Positions 32,907-39,127 of a DNA stretch of 64,000 bases are shown here, piece by piece. The first letter of the stretch is position 1. The number at the start of each line of letters is the position of its first letter. The position numbers and the translations under genes are program-made. The DNA is from Arthrobacter sp. Edens01 (GTDB taxonomy: Bacteria > Actinomycetota > Actinomycetes > Actinomycetales > Micrococcaceae), in contig NZ_LKIU01000005.1 of NCBI RefSeq assembly GCF_001307035.1, positions 265,664 through 329,663 of the forward strand, in the 5' to 3' direction. The notes beneath the pieces are model-generated. The model was given only the letters and a program-made list of their open reading frames with translations, ran no database searches and was not told the DNA's origin.

Positions 32907-33614
32907 TCAGTAACCGGACCCGCCGTTACCACCCTTAACAATAGCGATTCCGGAGCTAGCTCCAATTCGCGTGGCGCCCGCGTCGATCATTGCGAGGGCA
33001 TCTTCGCGGCTGCGGACGCCGCCGGAAGCCTTTACTCCCAAGTCAGGGCCAACAGTACGGCGCATCAGTGCGACGTCCTCAACGGTTGCCCCGCCGCCGT
33101 TGAATCCGGTGGACGTCTTCACAAAGTCGGCTCCCGCGGCTACGGCAGCTTCGCAGGCAAGGACCTTCTGCTCATCAGTAAGCAGTGAGGTTTCGATGAT
33201 GACCTTCAGGATGCTGCCTGCCTCGTGCACGGCGTCGGCGACGGCGGCGATATCCCGGACCAGGGTTTCCCGGTCTCCACGGCGTGCAGCTGCGATATCG
33301 ATGACCATGTCGATCTCGTCTGCTCCGTCCTGGAGCGCGCCCTGCGCTTCAAAGACCTTGACTTCAGTGGTGGTTGCCCCCAGGGGGAAGCCGATGACCG
33401 AGCAGGTGTCGACTCCGGAGTCCTTCAGGGCTGTGTGGACGGTTGAGACCCAGAGCGGGTTTACACAGACGGACTTGAATCCGTACTGGGCTGCTTCTTC
33501 GCAGACCCGTAGGATGTCCTCGCGTGAAGCTTCGGGCTTCAGCAGGGTGTGGTCAATGTAGGAGGCGAGGTCAGCGGTGGACTGATTCTCTTGAGGCGCG
33601 GCGTTCGTGGGCAT
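32907..33614 (-). CDS. deoC: Deoxyribose-phosphate aldolase
   Basis: A 235-residue class I aldolase. [13 protein letters not shown] opens the TIM barrel, EIDMVIDI and KVIIETSLL are conserved strands, and [15 protein letters not shown] carries the Schiff-base Lys166. GVKASGGVR is the phosphate-binding end. It splits 2-deoxyribose 5-phosphate into acetaldehyde and glyceraldehyde 3-phosphate in deoxynucleoside breakdown. The ATG at 33614 follows GGAAAGGACCGCT; the open frame above is not needed. A purine nucleoside phosphorylase and a phosphohexomutase of the same salvage route lie 4-6 kb away, beyond the peptide/c-di-GMP module. Confidence 0.95.
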
Positions 33615-33713
33615 AGCGGTCCTTTCCAAACTGGTCTTCCAGTCTCCCATATGACGCCTTGCGCACAGGCCCGCGATGGGCGGCAAGGTTACTTGGGCAG
33701 TTAAGTAAGAAAA

Positions 33714-33749
33714 GCCGGGCGATGATCCATTTCGGAATCGCCGCCCGGC
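33714..33749 (-). terminator. Terminator of the small peptide gene
   Basis: On the minus strand GCCGGGCGGCGAT pairs with ATCATCGCCCGGC (8-bp stem, a 2-base internal mismatch, then 3 more pairs) and is followed by TTTTCTTACTT. It lies 15 bases after the stop of the 47-aa peptide gene and separates it from deoC. Its presence supports the peptide gene as an independent transcript. Confidence 0.75.
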
Positions 33750-33763
33750 CTCATCTCAACGAC

Positions 33764-33907
33764 TTAGTTCGGCCACCAGCCAACTAGCGGCGATACAACA
33801 CTGCCACCGTTGCCGTTCCCGAAGGACGGAGCCGCATTTGCGGGTGCTGCTACGCCAACGGCCGTGACGGCAGCTGCGAGAAGAAGGGATGCCCCCAGTT
33901 TCTTCAT
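33764..33907 (-). CDS. Small secreted peptide precursor (47 aa)
   Basis: A 47-codon gene. The precursor starts MKKLGASLLLAAAVTAVGVA and has a textbook Sec signal: two Lys, a 17-residue hydrophobic core and an ANA-A cleavage site near residue 25. The predicted mature part has 22 residues, APSFGNGNGGSVVSPLVGWW then PN; it is Gly/Asn-rich with an aromatic C terminus. TAGGAGTACGAA precedes the ATG, a TATAGT -10 box lies 45 bases upstream and a hairpin terminator follows, so it is a complete transcription unit. It is divergent from the TPR-like gene. A signalling role is suggested by that pairing; it could instead be a simple exported peptide. Confidence 0.75.
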   Translation of the reverse strand: MKKLGASLLLAAAVTAVGVAAPANAAPSFGNGNGGSVVSPLVGWWPN

Positions 33908-33951
33908 TTCGTACTCCTATGAATGTGTCGCCGAGTTGCTGACAAGGAAAA

Positions 33952-33957
33952 ACTATA
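33952..33957 (-). promoter_or_regulatory. -10 box of the small peptide gene
   Basis: TATAGT on the minus strand, preceded by GTAGG, would place a transcript start near 33945 and give a leader of about 38 bases before the ATG. No good -35 hexamer is seen. The 230-base gap up to the TPR-like gene is less GC-rich than the flanking housekeeping genes. Confidence 0.45.
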
Positions 33958-34137
33958 CCTACGATTCGTGGCTTTTGTGCCGTAGATTGGGAATTGAGGA
34001 TATCTTGTGGAGGAGCCAAGCGGCTCGTAGTGTCTTGGAACGTAACGTTGGACCTGACTGCCCTAGCATGCGCACAATCGAATAACTCGCGTTCGCGACA
34101 CGTAGTCCGACATACAGAGAAAGTTCCGTGGCTTTGA

Positions 34138-35226
34138 ATGACAAGTGACTTCATCCTGAATGAGTACAAGGCCCGGCAAATGTGGGAACGGCGGGAATAC
34201 TCTTCAGCCATGGCAGCCGCCAAGACAGCGGCTGAATCGGCTGCCCTGCGGAATGATGACGCAGGATGGTGGCGGATGATGTTCCTGTACGGGGAATGCC
34301 AGCTTGAACTGGGATTTATGGATGGATGCGCTGAGACAGCACGGTTGCTGGCGGACCATCCAGTGGCCCAAAACGCCCCGGAAGTCGCCGGGAAAGCTAA
34401 GGCTCTTATGTCGCTGGGGCTTCAGGGCATGGGGCTTTTGCCAGAGGCTCTTGTCGTTGCCCGGTCTGCGGCGTTGGATTCGCCAGAGGCCGGTATGGGA
34501 GGACGCGGACGGATTGAGGCGCAGCAGGCGCTGGTCGCGGTTCTTAGCGAGAGCGGGCACTTGGAAGACGCTTGGCATGAGGCGCAAACTCTCGCACAGA
34601 TGGTCGGTGATGAGGCAGTTCTGGAGAAAGCTGGGAAGGCCTACTGGTCTATCGGAAACGTTGCATTCCTGGCAGGCATGGAGCGGGAGGGAACGTATTA
34701 CCACGGTCTTGCTGCCTCTAGTCTCTCCCCAAGCAACGACGTGAACCTCTGGGCGTTGTTCAACAAGGCATCTGCGTTCATGAGATTGACCGCCAACCTG
34801 GTCGAGCCCGAGACCCTGCAGTGCATTGAACGGGCAGAAATGGCGCTTTCTATTACGGGAGGGACGCGTCAGGATGAACTGGATATTGAAGTCATCCGTG
34901 CTTACTGGAGTTACCTGACGGGGGACATCGCGGCAGCCAGACGTCAAATGTCAGCCGTACTCGACGAGTCTGCCGCCCTCTCACCTCTAAGCCATGGAGA
35001 TGCCCGGCTGCTTTTCGCGCGAATAATTGCCGACGACGGTGACCTTCATGCGTCGGTCGACCATGCCACAACAAGTGCCGAAATCTTTGGTAAGGCCGGG
35101 GCCGTAGCCAGGGAAGAACTAGCCAGGGAATTTGGCCGCCAGGTTCGTGCCAGAGCCGAGCAGAGGGCGGGACGTGCCGCTTCGTCTTTGGGACATGGTG
35201 TCACGGGACAAGAAATCGACCATTGA
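34138..35226 (+). CDS. TPR-like helical protein, possible peptide sensor
   Basis: A 362-residue cytosolic protein that is almost entirely alpha-helical. Repeated helix pairs of about 34-40 residues with TPR-like A/G/Y/A spacing run from 10 to 330, for example REYSSAMAAAKTAAESAA, GHLEDAWHEAQTLAQM and AYWSIGNVAFLAGMEREG. There is no DNA-binding domain, signal peptide or membrane helix. Length and layout resemble Rap-type TPR proteins of firmicutes, which bind secreted peptides, but I see no specific Rap signature. A stop codon abuts the ATG, so no longer start exists. It heads a group with STAS-like and GGDEF-EAL genes. GC content looks lower than its neighbours. Confidence 0.65.
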   Translation: MTSDFILNEYKARQMWERREYSSAMAAAKTAAESAALRNDDAGWWRMMFLYGECQLELGFMDGCAETARLLADHPVAQNAPEVAGKAKALMSLGLQGMGLLPEALVVARSAALDSPEAGMGGRGRIEAQQALVAVLSESGHLEDAWHEAQTLAQMVGDEAVLEKAGKAYWSIGNVAFLAGMEREGTYYHGLAASSLSPSNDVNLWALFNKASAFMRLTANLVEPETLQCIERAEMALSITGGTRQDELDIEVIRAYWSYLTGDIAAARRQMSAVLDESAALSPLSHGDARLLFARIIADDGDLHASVDHATTSAEIFGKAGAVAREELAREFGRQVRARAEQRAGRAASSLGHGVTGQEIDH

Positions 35227-35278
35227 TTGTCCTCGATTTTAGGGATAGCTAAGGTAGCTTTGGGTTTTGGGGGGAAAC

Positions 35279-35383
35279 ATGGGAAAGCATCGAGTTTTAT
35301 CTATAGGGCAAAAGGCGGAGCTTTTCGCCTTGCATGCCGAGCGGCGACAGGTTGTTGGGGGACGGCATGACGTTGGTGGATAG
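35279..35383 (+). CDS. Possible 34-aa small protein
   Basis: A 34-codon frame starts at an ATG with GGGGGGAAAC directly upstream, a strong ribosome binding site. It opens MGKHRVLSIGQKAELFALHA and is amphipathic and basic, without signal or membrane segment. It overlaps the STAS-like start by 17 bases, an arrangement that would couple translation. No family is recognised. It might instead be the decayed front end of a longer gene or a leader ORF. Confidence 0.4.
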   Translation: MGKHRVLSIGQKAELFALHAERRQVVGGRHDVGG

Positions 35384-35798
35384 TGCTGTACCGATACCGG
35401 ACGAGACTGCTACAGCAGCGGACGACTGCGTTTCAGAACCCAGGGAGAGCCACGCAGAGGTCTACCAGGACGACGGACACGTAACCATCGTCCTGCCGGC
35501 CGGCGAAGTCATAACCGGAGGCATCGCAGCCCAGGCTGCCAAGGAGTTCGAAGGGCTGGCCGGAACCGGATTCAGCCCGCTGCTGCTTGAGCTGACCGGG
35601 GTCGAATCACTGACGCGCACCGCCCGGAAGATCTTCGGCGCGGCACGCAATGCCTCTGCTGTTGCCGTAGTTGGCTCATCGCAGGTGGACCGGGTCATTG
35701 CGAACTTCCTGCTCGGGGGTGACTTGCCGCCCTGTCCCACCAGGTATTTTTCCTCGAAGAGTGACGCGCTGAACTGGCTCAGGGGCAAGGCGCGATGA
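35367..35798 (+). CDS. STAS/SpoIIAA-like protein
   Basis: A 143-residue cytosolic protein starting at the ATG at 35367, which follows GTTGGGGGACGGC. An acidic, probably disordered N terminus (1-35) is followed by alternating strands and helices: HVTIVLPAGEV, PLLLELTGVESLTRTARKIF, ASAVAVVGSSQVDRVIANFL and a closing YFSSKSDALNWL. This fits the SpoIIAA/STAS-like families whose ends read F-x-S-x(2)-DAL-x-WL. Such domains act as phospho- or ligand-controlled partner switches. Its stop overlaps the GGDEF-EAL start by 4 bases, so the products should be made in equal amounts and may interact. Confidence 0.7.
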   Translation: MTLVDSAVPIPDETATAADDCVSEPRESHAEVYQDDGHVTIVLPAGEVITGGIAAQAAKEFEGLAGTGFSPLLLELTGVESLTRTARKIFGAARNASAVAVVGSSQVDRVIANFLLGGDLPPCPTRYFSSKSDALNWLRGKAR

Positions 35799-37360
35799 CG
35801 GAACCCGAACCGGGGGACACACGGCTCCAGCAGGTTGTGGATGGCATCGTCAGGATCGCTGCGGGCGATCTGAGTACAAGGATTCGTACCTCACCGAGGC
35901 GTGACGACGTTGATGCTGTCATCACCGGGATCAACCTTCTTGCCGAGGAACTGAATTCTGTATACCAGGAGTTCGAAGACAGGGTTGAAACCCGGACCCG
36001 GGAGCTGGAGGCCGCGCACCGGCAAATGCAGCGCATGGCCATGAGCGATGCGCTGACGGGAACAGCGAACCGAACGGCCCTGATGCACGAGCTGGCAGTG
36101 GCCCTGCTGGCCGCAGACGGCGGCGACAAGCGTCCGGCGGTGCTGATGATCGACTTGGACGAGTTCAAGGACATCAATGACAGCTTCGGCCACCAGACCG
36201 GAGACCAGGTGCTGGTGGAGGTCGCGCGCAGGATCCGCTGGGCGGTCCGCCGTGGGGACACCGTGGCCAGGCTTGGTGGTGACGAGTTCGCCGTCCTGCT
36301 CCCCGAAACAGGCCTGACGACCGCCATGAGCGTAGCCGCGCGCATCCAGGAAGCGCTGGGGGAGTGCATCCGGGTGGAAGAAATCGATGTCTGGCCGCAC
36401 GCCAGCATTGGTGTCCACGCGGCCCTGCCGGGTGAGAGCGCCGAGGACATCATGGTGCGCGCGGACACCGCTATGTACTCTGCCAAGGACTCAGGCCGCA
36501 GCCAGAGCAAGGCCTTTGAACCGGTCATGCTGTACTCCCGCCAACTTCGCCGGGACATGGCCGCAGAGCTCCGCGAGGGCGTGGGGCGCAGCGAGCTCTT
36601 CCTTGATTATCAGCCCGTGGTTGAACTCGCGACGGGCCGGATGACCGGCGTTGAAGCCCTGGTCCGCTGGCGGCATCCGGAACGCGGGCTGATCATGCCC
36701 GACGATTTCATCCCCATTGCCGAGGAGACAGGCATCATCCTGGACATGGGCAGGTGGGTCCTGCGCGCTGCGCTGGAACAGCTTGCCCGCTGGGAAGATG
36801 AACTGGTCCTCGACGAGGACTTTAAGGTCAGGGTCAACCTGTCAGCCATGGAGCTGCAGCGGCTGGATCTCATCGACCACGTTCGGCAGACGCTGGCCGA
36901 AACCAGGATCGCCCCCTCGAGACTGGTCATCGAAATCACCGAGAGCGCGTTTGTCAGCGGCGGTGATGTGGAGATGTACTCGCTCAAGTCCTTGAACGCA
37001 CTTGGAGTCGGGATCGAGATAGACGACTTCGGCACCGGATACTCATCCATCAGTTACCTGCGCAGGCTTCCGGTCCATACGGTGAAGGTGGACCGCAGCC
37101 TCATCCGCGACATCAGCGCTGATCCTGGACAGCGCCGTTTCGTCGACGCCGTCCATGGACTCATCCAGGCAGCCGGAATGGAAGCCGTCTTCGAGGGGAT
37201 CGAGACCCTGGACCAGGCCGCCGATCTCCTGGTCCTCGGCTGCCGGAACGGGCAGGGCTACTACTTCAGCAGGCCATTAACCGGGCAACAGGTCGCGGCG
37301 ATAATCACCGCGGGAACGACGCTGCCCCTGGTTGACTCGGCAATAGCTGCAGGGGAATAG
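35795..37360 (+). CDS. Soluble GGDEF-EAL c-di-GMP enzyme with HAMP-like N terminus
   Basis: A 521-residue protein without membrane helices. An N-terminal HAMP/coiled-coil region (about 5-75) leads to a GGDEF domain with intact GGDEF at 161-165 and an inhibitory RxxD site at 152-155 (RRGD). The EAL domain follows, with EAL at 287-289, a DDFGTGYSS motif from Asp410 and a late FEGIET, so the residues for both synthesis and hydrolysis look complete. It can set cellular c-di-GMP; which activity dominates cannot be told. It is coupled to the STAS-like gene by ATGA and ends the signalling module, facing the convergent phosphohexomutase. Confidence 0.92.
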   Translation: MTEPEPGDTRLQQVVDGIVRIAAGDLSTRIRTSPRRDDVDAVITGINLLAEELNSVYQEFEDRVETRTRELEAAHRQMQRMAMSDALTGTANRTALMHELAVALLAADGGDKRPAVLMIDLDEFKDINDSFGHQTGDQVLVEVARRIRWAVRRGDTVARLGGDEFAVLLPETGLTTAMSVAARIQEALGECIRVEEIDVWPHASIGVHAALPGESAEDIMVRADTAMYSAKDSGRSQSKAFEPVMLYSRQLRRDMAAELREGVGRSELFLDYQPVVELATGRMTGVEALVRWRHPERGLIMPDDFIPIAEETGIILDMGRWVLRAALEQLARWEDELVLDEDFKVRVNLSAMELQRLDLIDHVRQTLAETRIAPSRLVIEITESAFVSGGDVEMYSLKSLNALGVGIEIDDFGTGYSSISYLRRLPVHTVKVDRSLIRDISADPGQRRFVDAVHGLIQAAGMEAVFEGIETLDQAADLLVLGCRNGQGYYFSRPLTGQQVAAIITAGTTLPLVDSAIAAGE

Positions 37361-37372
37361 CGAACACCGGCC

Positions 37373-39127
37373 CTACAGGCCCAGGGCCGCCGAGATGTCC
37401 GCCTTCGCCGCAGCCAGCCGGTCCGCAGCCGCAGCACGTGCCGCCGGAAGCTCAGCGCCGCCGGCAACCGGCACGATGACCTCCAGATAGCACTTGAGCT
37501 TCGGCTCTGTCCCCGACGGGCGGACGATGATCCGTGTGTCGTCCTGGGTCCGGTAGAGCAGCCCGTCGGTGGGCGGGAGATCCGCGGACCCGGCAGACAG
37601 GTCGACAGCGGAGATTACGGCTGAGCCGCCCAGCGAGACCGGAGGCTCCTCCCGCAGACGCGTCATCATCTGCGGAATCAGCGCCAGATCGTCGACCCGC
37701 ACCGAGAGCTGGTCAGAGGCGTGGAGGCCATGTTCAAGTGCCAGATCGTCGAGCATGTCGAACAGCGTGCGGCCGGATGCCTTCAGCGAGGCGGCCAGTT
37801 CGGCGATGAGCAGGCCGGCGGAGATTCCGTCCTTGTCCCGGACCAGGCCCGGAGCCACGCAGTAGCCCAGTGCTTCCTCGTACCCGTAGACCAGGCCCGG
37901 CACGCGGGAAATCCATTTAAACCCGGTGAGGGTTTCGTGGTGGGCAAACCCTGCGGACGCCGCGATGCGGGCAAGCAGCCGGGAAGAGACAATCGAGTTT
38001 GCGAAGACCGGCGGGCGGCCCGCTGCGCCGCGCAGCTTCAGATGTCCCGCACGGATCCGGGTGGCGAGGTGGGCTCCAAGCAGCGCTCCGGTTTCGTCAC
38101 CGCGCAGCATGCGCCACTCGCCGGTCGAAGGGTCCTTCGCGGCGACGGCCGCACGGTCTGCATCGGGGTCGTTGGCAAGGACGATGTCCGCGTCAGTCTC
38201 CGCTGCCATTGCGACGGCGAGGTCCAGTGCACCGGGTTCTTCCGGGTTCGGGAACGCCACAGTCGGGAAATCAGGGTCCGGCTCGGCCTGTGCCGCTACG
38301 AGCTTCACGGAGGTGAATCCGGCATCGCGGAGGACCGCCGTCATGGTTTCGCCGCCGACCCCGTGCATGGGAGTGAGCACAATCTTGAGGTCACGCGCGG
38401 GGTAGCCGTCCCGTGACACCAGGCCGTCAACGGCACTGATATAGTCCGCCACGATCGATTCGGAGACCTCGGTCCAGCCTTCCGGAGCGGTCTCAATCGA
38501 GCCCAGGGGGACCGTGTAGTCGATCCGCGCGGCGATCTCGGCGTCGTACGGCGGAACAATCTGCGCGCCGCGTCCCGGACCCTTTACCGTCCGGCCGCCA
38601 AGATAGACCTTGTAGCCGTTGTCCTGGGCCGGGTTGTGGCTGGCAGTGACCATCACTCCCGCATCGGTGTCCAGCGCCCGCACAGCGTAGGCGAGCACCG
38701 GCGTCGGAAGAGTGCAGGGGAGGAGGAATGCTTCAATGCCGGCAGCGCTGAAAACTGCCGCAGTCTCCAGGGCAAACGCCTTGGAGTTATAGCGTGCGTC
38801 GTAGCCAATCACTGCGCTGGGGACCCAGCCTTCGGACTTGTCCTGCAGGAACGAGGCGATACCCGCCGCGGTCCGGCGCACGACGGCGCGGTTCATCCGC
38901 ATGGGTCCGGCACCAAGGGCAGCACGCAGGCCTGCGGTACCGAACTCCAGAGTGCCGGAGAACCTGTCCGTCAGCTCCGCCAGTGCCGCTTCCGCTGCTG
39001 CGCCTTCTGCTGAAGCTTCCTCCAGCAGTTTGCGCAGCTGGGCTGCAGTTGCGTGGTCCGGGTCGGAATCGGCCCAGTGCCGGGCTTCAACCAGCAGTTC
39101 GTTGCGTTCCGTGGCGGTCAGGCTCAT
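37373..39127 (-). CDS. Phosphohexomutase (phosphoglucomutase/phosphomannomutase family)
   Basis: A 584-residue alpha-D-phosphohexomutase. VMVTASHNPAQDNGYKVY holds the catalytic phospho-Ser, DPDADR the metal-binding loop, and RPSGTEPKLKCYLEV the phosphate-binding C-terminal loop. The large size matches the PgcA/PGM2 branch, which converts hexose or pentose 1-phosphates to 5/6-phosphates. Sitting 29 bases downstream of a purine nucleoside phosphorylase gene on the same strand, it may use (deoxy)ribose 1-phosphate released there, feeding deoC. The exact sugar preference is unproven. Confidence 0.92.
   Translation of the reverse strand: MSLTATERNELLVEARHWADSDPDHATAAQLRKLLEEASAEGAAAEAALAELTDRFSGTLEFGTAGLRAALGAGPMRMNRAVVRRTAAGIASFLQDKSEGWVPSAVIGYDARYNSKAFALETAAVFSAAGIEAFLLPCTLPTPVLAYAVRALDTDAGVMVTASHNPAQDNGYKVYLGGRTVKGPGRGAQIVPPYDAEIAARIDYTVPLGSIETAPEGWTEVSESIVADYISAVDGLVSRDGYPARDLKIVLTPMHGVGGETMTAVLRDAGFTSVKLVAAQAEPDPDFPTVAFPNPEEPGALDLAVAMAAETDADIVLANDPDADRAAVAAKDPSTGEWRMLRGDETGALLGAHLATRIRAGHLKLRGAAGRPPVFANSIVSSRLLARIAASAGFAHHETLTGFKWISRVPGLVYGYEEALGYCVAPGLVRDKDGISAGLLIAELAASLKASGRTLFDMLDDLALEHGLHASDQLSVRVDDLALIPQMMTRLREEPPVSLGGSAVISAVDLSAGSADLPPTDGLLYRTQDDTRIIVRPSGTEPKLKCYLEVIVPVAGGAELPAARAAAADRLAAAKADISAALGL

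Follow-up and report, generated by a model that had tools for sequence, protein, structure and literature searches.

The receptors of the RRNPP group are treated as a Firmicutes family in the accessible parts of two papers (PMC10075063, PMC9765709), and the actinobacterial quorum-sensing signals covered in the available text of the first are typically small molecules made by enzymes. Two described systems are among the closest to the locus reported here. In PlcR-PapR, a receptor with a helix-turn-helix (HTH) and a tetratricopeptide repeat (TPR) part is adjoined by the gene of a small exported-type precursor, in which the signal word lies at the C-terminus or close to it. In Rap-Phr of Bacillus, the TPR protein beside the precursor gene lacks a DNA-binding domain, and more than one signal copy per precursor is known, with Phr3T, Phr105 and duplicated copies named in the accessible portion of PMC11343458. 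We analyzed a stretch of 64,000 nucleotides from Arthrobacter sp. Edens01 (the window), in which a peptide gene, a TPR-like gene, a STAS-like gene and a GGDEF-EAL gene had been proposed in a preliminary description as a signalling module acting on cyclic di-GMP (c-di-GMP). All four genes are present at the positions given there. The candidate is real and larger than was proposed, and the peptide family is wider than the layout of the window. The best reading, by analogy, is a pheromone-receptor family that would work like the PlcR or Rap systems and has a c-di-GMP branch, and we consider it fairly probable that the window holds a module for peptide signalling between cells, with c-di-GMP as its output.

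The candidate pheromone precursor gene (33764..33907, minus strand) encodes 47 amino acids, MKKLGASLLLAAAVTAVGVAAPANAAPSFGNGNGGSVVSPLVGWWPN, and is conserved in the genus. On the same strand it comprises a signal-like region (33833-33907), so called by a crude hydropathy rule made for this analysis, then a linker, the C-terminal core VGWWPN (33767-33784) and the stop codon (33764-33766). A Shine-Dalgarno-like AGGAG (33914..33918, minus strand) stands six bases 5' of the ATG, in a short block conserved across six species of the genus. Directly 3' of the gene is a terminator-like hairpin (33712..33751, minus strand), then the T tract TTTTCTTACTT; the hairpin has a folding energy of -32 kcal/mol (z -5.4, none of 200 shuffles equally stable) and was missing from a simple terminator scan because the loop limit of that scan was 3-8. 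A divergent intergenic region of 230 bp (33908..34137), conserved in short blocks only, separates the precursor gene from the candidate receptor gene (34138..35226, plus strand, 362 amino acids). A simple scan found no consensus promoter in this region, and there was no Rfam match within 33600-37500. At 47 and 362 residues, the two products fall within the ranges given for RRNPP propeptides (10-100) and receptors (250-500) in the available part of PMC10075063, and the precursors of some relatives are longer, up to about 165 residues.

The 362-residue protein had zero NCBIfam matches and nothing near a Pfam cut-off. Its AlphaFold2 model, built from seven sequences (the window protein and six named Arthrobacter loci), is all helical, with a mean predicted local distance difference test score of 86.9 and a predicted template modelling score of 0.80, and TPR models pass the Pfam cut-offs in one of six relatives scanned (L089); the protein is labelled TPR because of this model and this relative. 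Its closest named relatives are from Arthrobacter species (57-66% identity), and a protein search found it in 89 of the 197 family genomes that had been sampled from a larger group. For the comparison, 120 stretches were fetched first, and 20 more were added to cover the tail of the match list and to give wider views. The first 120, the window and one further stretch (L032) gave 124 TPR matches. With a hidden Markov model (HMM) built from the visible XRE-type domains, 75 of these were classed as HTH-TPR genes and 48 as lone TPR genes, L032 being left uncounted. In the Pfam scan the HTH was above the cut-offs in L057, L089 and L151 and below in L048. No DNA-binding domain was found in the window protein, which is one of the lone forms.

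Peptide genes were sought with a strict rule, which asked for a signal-like product of 30-180 residues with xWP after residue 22, encoded divergently and starting 100-600 bases upstream of the receptor gene. Such a gene was present at 43 of the 48 lone and 37 of the 75 HTH receptors, compared with five matches upstream of 346 other long open reading frames (ORFs) in the same stretches. Four of these five belonged to the second TPR gene of tandem loci (L064, L068), leaving one in 342. When the start was allowed 20-650 bases upstream, a divergent peptide was found in the fetched Micrococcaceae stretches at 46 of the 48 lone TPRs, the window included, and at 41 of the 75 HTH receptors, or 39 after L161 and L166 were dropped by eye. 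The expectation that the peptide gene lies beside orthologous TPR genes was thus borne out. A chance ORF as the origin of the peptide was ruled out by conservation and by the control ORFs. We consider it likely that the peptide is read by the TPR family. The two lone TPRs without a peptide are both frameshifted: L163, although counted as lone, is an HTH form with its HTH in the other frame, and L127 is likewise frameshifted. These peptide-less loci, L127/L169 (G028:C45) and L163 (G058:C6), are probably decaying copies or assembly errors.

The STAS/SpoIIAA-like protein (154 amino acids; 35334..35798, plus strand) and the HAMP-GGDEF-EAL enzyme (521 amino acids; 35795..37360, plus strand) follow the receptor gene, and their ORFs overlap by ATGA. 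In the enzyme, Pfam recognizes GGDEF (E 1.4e-43), EAL (E 5.7e-71) and a HAMP-like N-terminus (E 1.6e-5). Inspection by eye showed its RxxD, GGDEF, EAL and DDFGTG motifs to be intact, and the protein was likewise judged by eye to be soluble. Searches of the strain's own genome for GGDEF and EAL returned one match each, both in this enzyme. Exactly one GGDEF protein was found in each of 29 genomes of the genus, and in all 29 a peptide match lies 2.0-2.2 kb from that gene (24 at E ≤ 1e-3, the weakest at 0.24); the TPR gene was matched in all 12 of them that were searched for it. The idea of c-di-GMP as the output, already raised for this locus, is strengthened by the fact that GGDEF and EAL domains were found nowhere else in the genome. 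Across the family, all 46 peptide-bearing lone TPRs have a GGDEF-EAL gene no more than about 6 kb away, in varying local orders; at L111, L115, L160 and L164 the stretch ends inside this gene, so that its beginning alone is visible. None was found in the 75 HTH-TPR stretches, which reach about 3-4 kb on each side, so that an enzyme 5 kb off would be missed; none was found either in seven stretches of 13-14 kb (L175, L179-L184) with at least three HTH forms. A Fisher test of this association took no account of the tree, and its value should carry no weight. If the peptide is indeed read by the TPR family, we consider it very probable that the lone TPR acts on c-di-GMP.

The most serious alternative is that peptide and receptor are a pheromone pair acting on another partner, for example an orphan HTH-TPR paralogue, with the GGDEF-EAL gene a mere neighbour. 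Peptide-less HTH-TPR paralogues do occur in the strain's own genome (L048) and in ten other genus genomes examined, and the enzyme is sometimes about 5 kb from the lone TPR. However, an enzyme that stays with every peptide-bearing lone TPR while the local order varies, and that is not seen in the HTH-TPR stretches, speaks against a bystander, and we regard this alternative as unlikely. The paralogue itself (L048 3322-4554; G000:C5, outside the window) is the genome's second receptor, an HTH form whose HTH is weak and beside which no peptide gene was found; it may listen to the same peptide as the window receptor.

We keep to peptide signalling through c-di-GMP and propose the following course for it. 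The 47-residue precursor would be exported, and cleavage outside the cell would release its C-terminal end, a short peptide around VGWWPN. An oligopeptide ATP-binding cassette transporter would take the peptide back; since seven SBP_bac_5 proteins were found in the genome, an oligopeptide importer is at hand. Inside the cell the peptide would bind the TPR solenoid. The lone TPR, lacking the DNA-binding domain of its HTH-TPR relatives, would then alter its hold on the co-encoded HAMP-GGDEF-EAL enzyme, either directly or via the STAS-like protein, and synthesis and breakdown of c-di-GMP would thereby shift with population density or kin. If this is true, the lone-TPR branch would couple pheromone and c-di-GMP in cells for which a single GGDEF-EAL protein has been found, which would make them a simple setting for asking how c-di-GMP tracks density or kin.

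The precursors carry a core with the consensus [VI]GxWP, the majority form being [VI]-G-N-W-P-[DNH] over 217 copies, counted before L161 and L166 were removed and with W-P fixed by the search pattern. One to four copies are present per precursor beside lone TPRs and one to eight beside HTH receptors, a likeness to Phr3T and Phr105, which also hold more than one signal copy in one precursor; those are described as duplicated copies in Rap-Phr systems, whereas up to eight are seen here, beside HTH-TPR receptors. Codon changes between copies within a gene were compared, and W and P were excluded because the search pattern fixes them. When all copy pairs in 53 genes were taken, the three positions ahead of W (-3 to -1) showed 256 silent and 12 changing differences, all 12 in L107, and flank positions -6 and -5 showed 107 silent and 279 changing. 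Because all-pairs comparisons are not independent, one precursor per receptor cluster was then used: with the first precursor of each of 18 clusters at 70% receptor identity, neighbouring copies only and L107 excluded, the core had 29 silent and no changing differences and the flank 8 and 37 (Fisher p 2.5e-13). The core repeats are kept as amino-acid words, and both the core and the reading frame of the peptide proved conserved. Among six species of the genus, the signal part of the precursor is conserved (159 silent, 38 changing, over non-independent pairs).

These repeats also bear on a second alternative, in which the peptide works outside the cell or at the membrane, in an antimicrobial or surface role, and the part of the TPR protein is confined to regulating it or giving protection. 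Short Trp- and Pro-rich peptides occur among antimicrobial peptides, and the precursor has a signal-like region. Nevertheless, a short word that is conserved amid variable linkers and repeated up to eight times is what a processed signal looks like, and no modification or immunity genes were recognized by eye among the neighbours, where a targeted search was not made. We consider such an activity improbable. None of four precursors scored above an NCBIfam cut-off, the one weak match being AimP_fam (E 0.066, with 13.4 bits where the cut-off is 35), and in Pfam the window peptide had no match and two of three other precursors none above cut-off. A HAT repeat match in the third passed its cut-off with no single matched stretch and is taken to be a repeat artefact.

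Of 396 genomes in the order, 26 matched the receptor at E ≤ 1e-20, and four of these belong to a family other than Micrococcaceae (f17). Five of seven places in that family were inspected: two carry repeat peptides (VGGSWPT three times in L210 and two times in L211), one has a possible single peptide (L212) and two have none (L213, L235). In the class, 21 of 394 genomes matched at E ≤ 1e-15. Sixteen places outside the order (L218-L232, L236) were scanned for ATG-started ORFs containing W, with all starts rescanned in four of them. Repeats were found in three, all from one family (f37): DIEWP twice in L219, DIGWP twice in L220 and DISWP three times in L224. Two others have a possible single word (L218, L222), and none was found in the remaining eleven. 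Matches to the HTH-TPR protein came from 43 plasmid records, 40 of them from Streptomyces, and matches to the window protein from two; six plasmid stretches were read, giving one peptide (L241) and nothing convincing in the other five. Outside Micrococcaceae, then, the peptide is present at a minority of the examined receptor genes. That adjacency reflects only a shared divergent promoter, with an unrelated role for the peptide, is very improbable: the two genes do use one 230-bp intergenic region, but the pairing is kept with receptors of less than 40% identity, outside the family and upstream of both receptor classes. We lean, somewhat more cautiously than for the window itself, towards an actinobacterial peptide language. 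Its precursors, with repeated [VI]GxWP- or DIxWP-like words, would be exported, and the words would be read within the cell by HTH-TPR receptors, which are encoded in Micrococcaceae, in one more family of the order, in another family of the class and on Streptomyces plasmids. One branch would have a receptor without a DNA-binding domain, coupled to the single GGDEF-EAL enzyme of the cell and, in several genera, to a cluster for exopolysaccharide. Were this so, the phylum would have a peptide-receptor family with readable words, and it would become possible to predict signals from genome sequences and to test them as synthetic peptides.

Several observations count against the interpretation offered here. 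A constant pairing of peptide and TPR gene, proposed as a check in the preliminary description, is seen at the 46 lone loci, but no peptide was found at two distant lone-TPR loci (L174, L178) that have both the TPR and the GGDEF-EAL gene, and 36 of the 75 HTH-TPR genes, L048 among them, have no such peptide beside them. Elsewhere in the tail of the match list a peptide is present in L176 and L177, and none was recognized in L175 and L179-L184. The broken L127, besides lacking a peptide, has no GGDEF-EAL gene within 20 kb of sequence (L169). On a quick tree of 122 rows, made without L032 and the short L163 and carrying a long-branch warning, the HTH/lone label changes at least twice, with the lone forms in groups of 41 and 6; since the split changes only about twice, the many loci represent few independent events. 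Distances between receptors and between cores are correlated (Mantel r 0.41 for lone and 0.53 for HTH forms, 0 of 2000 permutations each), and these correlations include shared ancestry. The last nine residues of the precursor vary freely in the genus (26 silent, 45 changing, over non-independent pairs in six species), so the word differs between species. As for effectors, no PilZ or MshEN protein was found in the strain's own genome. The proposed gene order holds in that GGDEF-EAL accompanies the lone TPR and not the HTH form, but STAS as an obligatory link was rejected, since the HMM finds none at eight lone-TPR loci (L055, L064, L067, L069, L073, L077, L094, L154). Finally, the Rap-Phr parallel stands in the outline and the likeness in working but not in sequence: hhalign against Rap60 gave a probability of 0.2%, phmmer with the window TPR protein alone found no match in the PDB, and the lone-TPR profile is no closer to Rap (RapJ E 0.047 at best, RapF 0.12) than to ordinary TPR proteins, its top matches being TTC29, AfsR and G-protein-signaling modulator 2.

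The sister receptors are nearer to a known system. Against the PDB, the HTH+TPR profile matches PlcR best (E 3.7e-9), with an alignment over the HTH and the first helical repeats; the matches that come next are HTH repressors and repeat proteins, either designed or ordinary. They share the HTH and TPR layout of PlcR and the other RRNPP(A) receptors, and the small exported-type precursor likewise adjoins the receptor gene with its word at or near the C-terminus. PlcR-PapR differs in belonging to another phylum, whereas here the core is [VI]GxWP and the precursor is divergent from its receptor; moreover, the HTH is missing from the lone-TPR branch, whose genes are accompanied by that of a c-di-GMP enzyme. 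With Rap-Phr the difference lies in the neighbourhood as well, since no response-regulator target is seen here and a GGDEF-EAL gene is the neighbour instead. The HTH form resembles PlcR, and the lone form, whose profile is not specific for RRNPP receptors, would work like RRNPP proteins. Searches of the literature, which covered few subscription papers and no bioRxiv preprints, found no description of this peptide family, and the core-motif strings returned only unrelated papers among the matches listed. The listing of TPR among quorum-sensing survey domains in Streptomyces, Rhodococcus, Saccharopolyspora and Thermobifida, in the accessible part of PMC4748050, weighs against full novelty.

The STAS-like protein matches DUF7793 (E 1.4e-12) and SpoIIAA-like (E 2.8e-5) in Pfam, and has a PDB relative, 3bl4 (E 7.9e-21). 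In SiaABCD of Pseudomonas, a STAS-like protein acts on a GGDEF enzyme. The window has the same combination, but its enzyme also contains EAL and HAMP-like parts, and the STAS gene is the member not found at the eight loci named above. No phosphatase or kinase partner for the STAS-like protein was recognized by eye over 30-41 kb, where the neighbours had no domain search.

At the loci where the enzyme is about 5 kb off, the intervening genes encode a divergent protein with two CBM_5_12 domains, which looks like a chitinase by eye only, and a membrane glycosyltransferase of the GT2 kind, about 770-840 residues long. In L186 (3307-7567), Pfam places the CBM_5_12 protein and the GT2 enzyme between the receptor and STAS genes, and several other genera are alike. 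Judging from this gene content, the output in other genera is probably exopolysaccharide, via the GT2 enzyme of the same cluster. GT2 is not supported as an effector in the window's genus: a search of 29 genomes gave no match, but it had no positive control, and an empty answer of this kind shows nothing by itself. Stretches from other genera did contain related GT2 genes.

Among mobile elements, two phage records have weak matches to the receptor, confined to its N-terminal (HTH) part. On the Streptomyces plasmid of L241, a gene annotated as a hypothetical protein (1448-1675) is a three-copy IDWP precursor, divergent from the HTH-TPR gene. Two tandem peptide-receptor pairs with different words occur in single genomes at L064 (3448-6023) and L168 (9408-12020): IDDWPH beside VGNWPG twice in the former, and IDNWPN beside VGNWPD four times in the latter, with the same pairs in L068. 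These tandem pairs offer a natural test of specificity. The receptors of L033 (6001-7026) and L037 (6001-7026) are 58% identical at alignment columns 1-200 and 94% identical at columns 201-330, a hint that the specificity part has been exchanged, and the peptides of the two species (L050, L053) both contain VNWWP.

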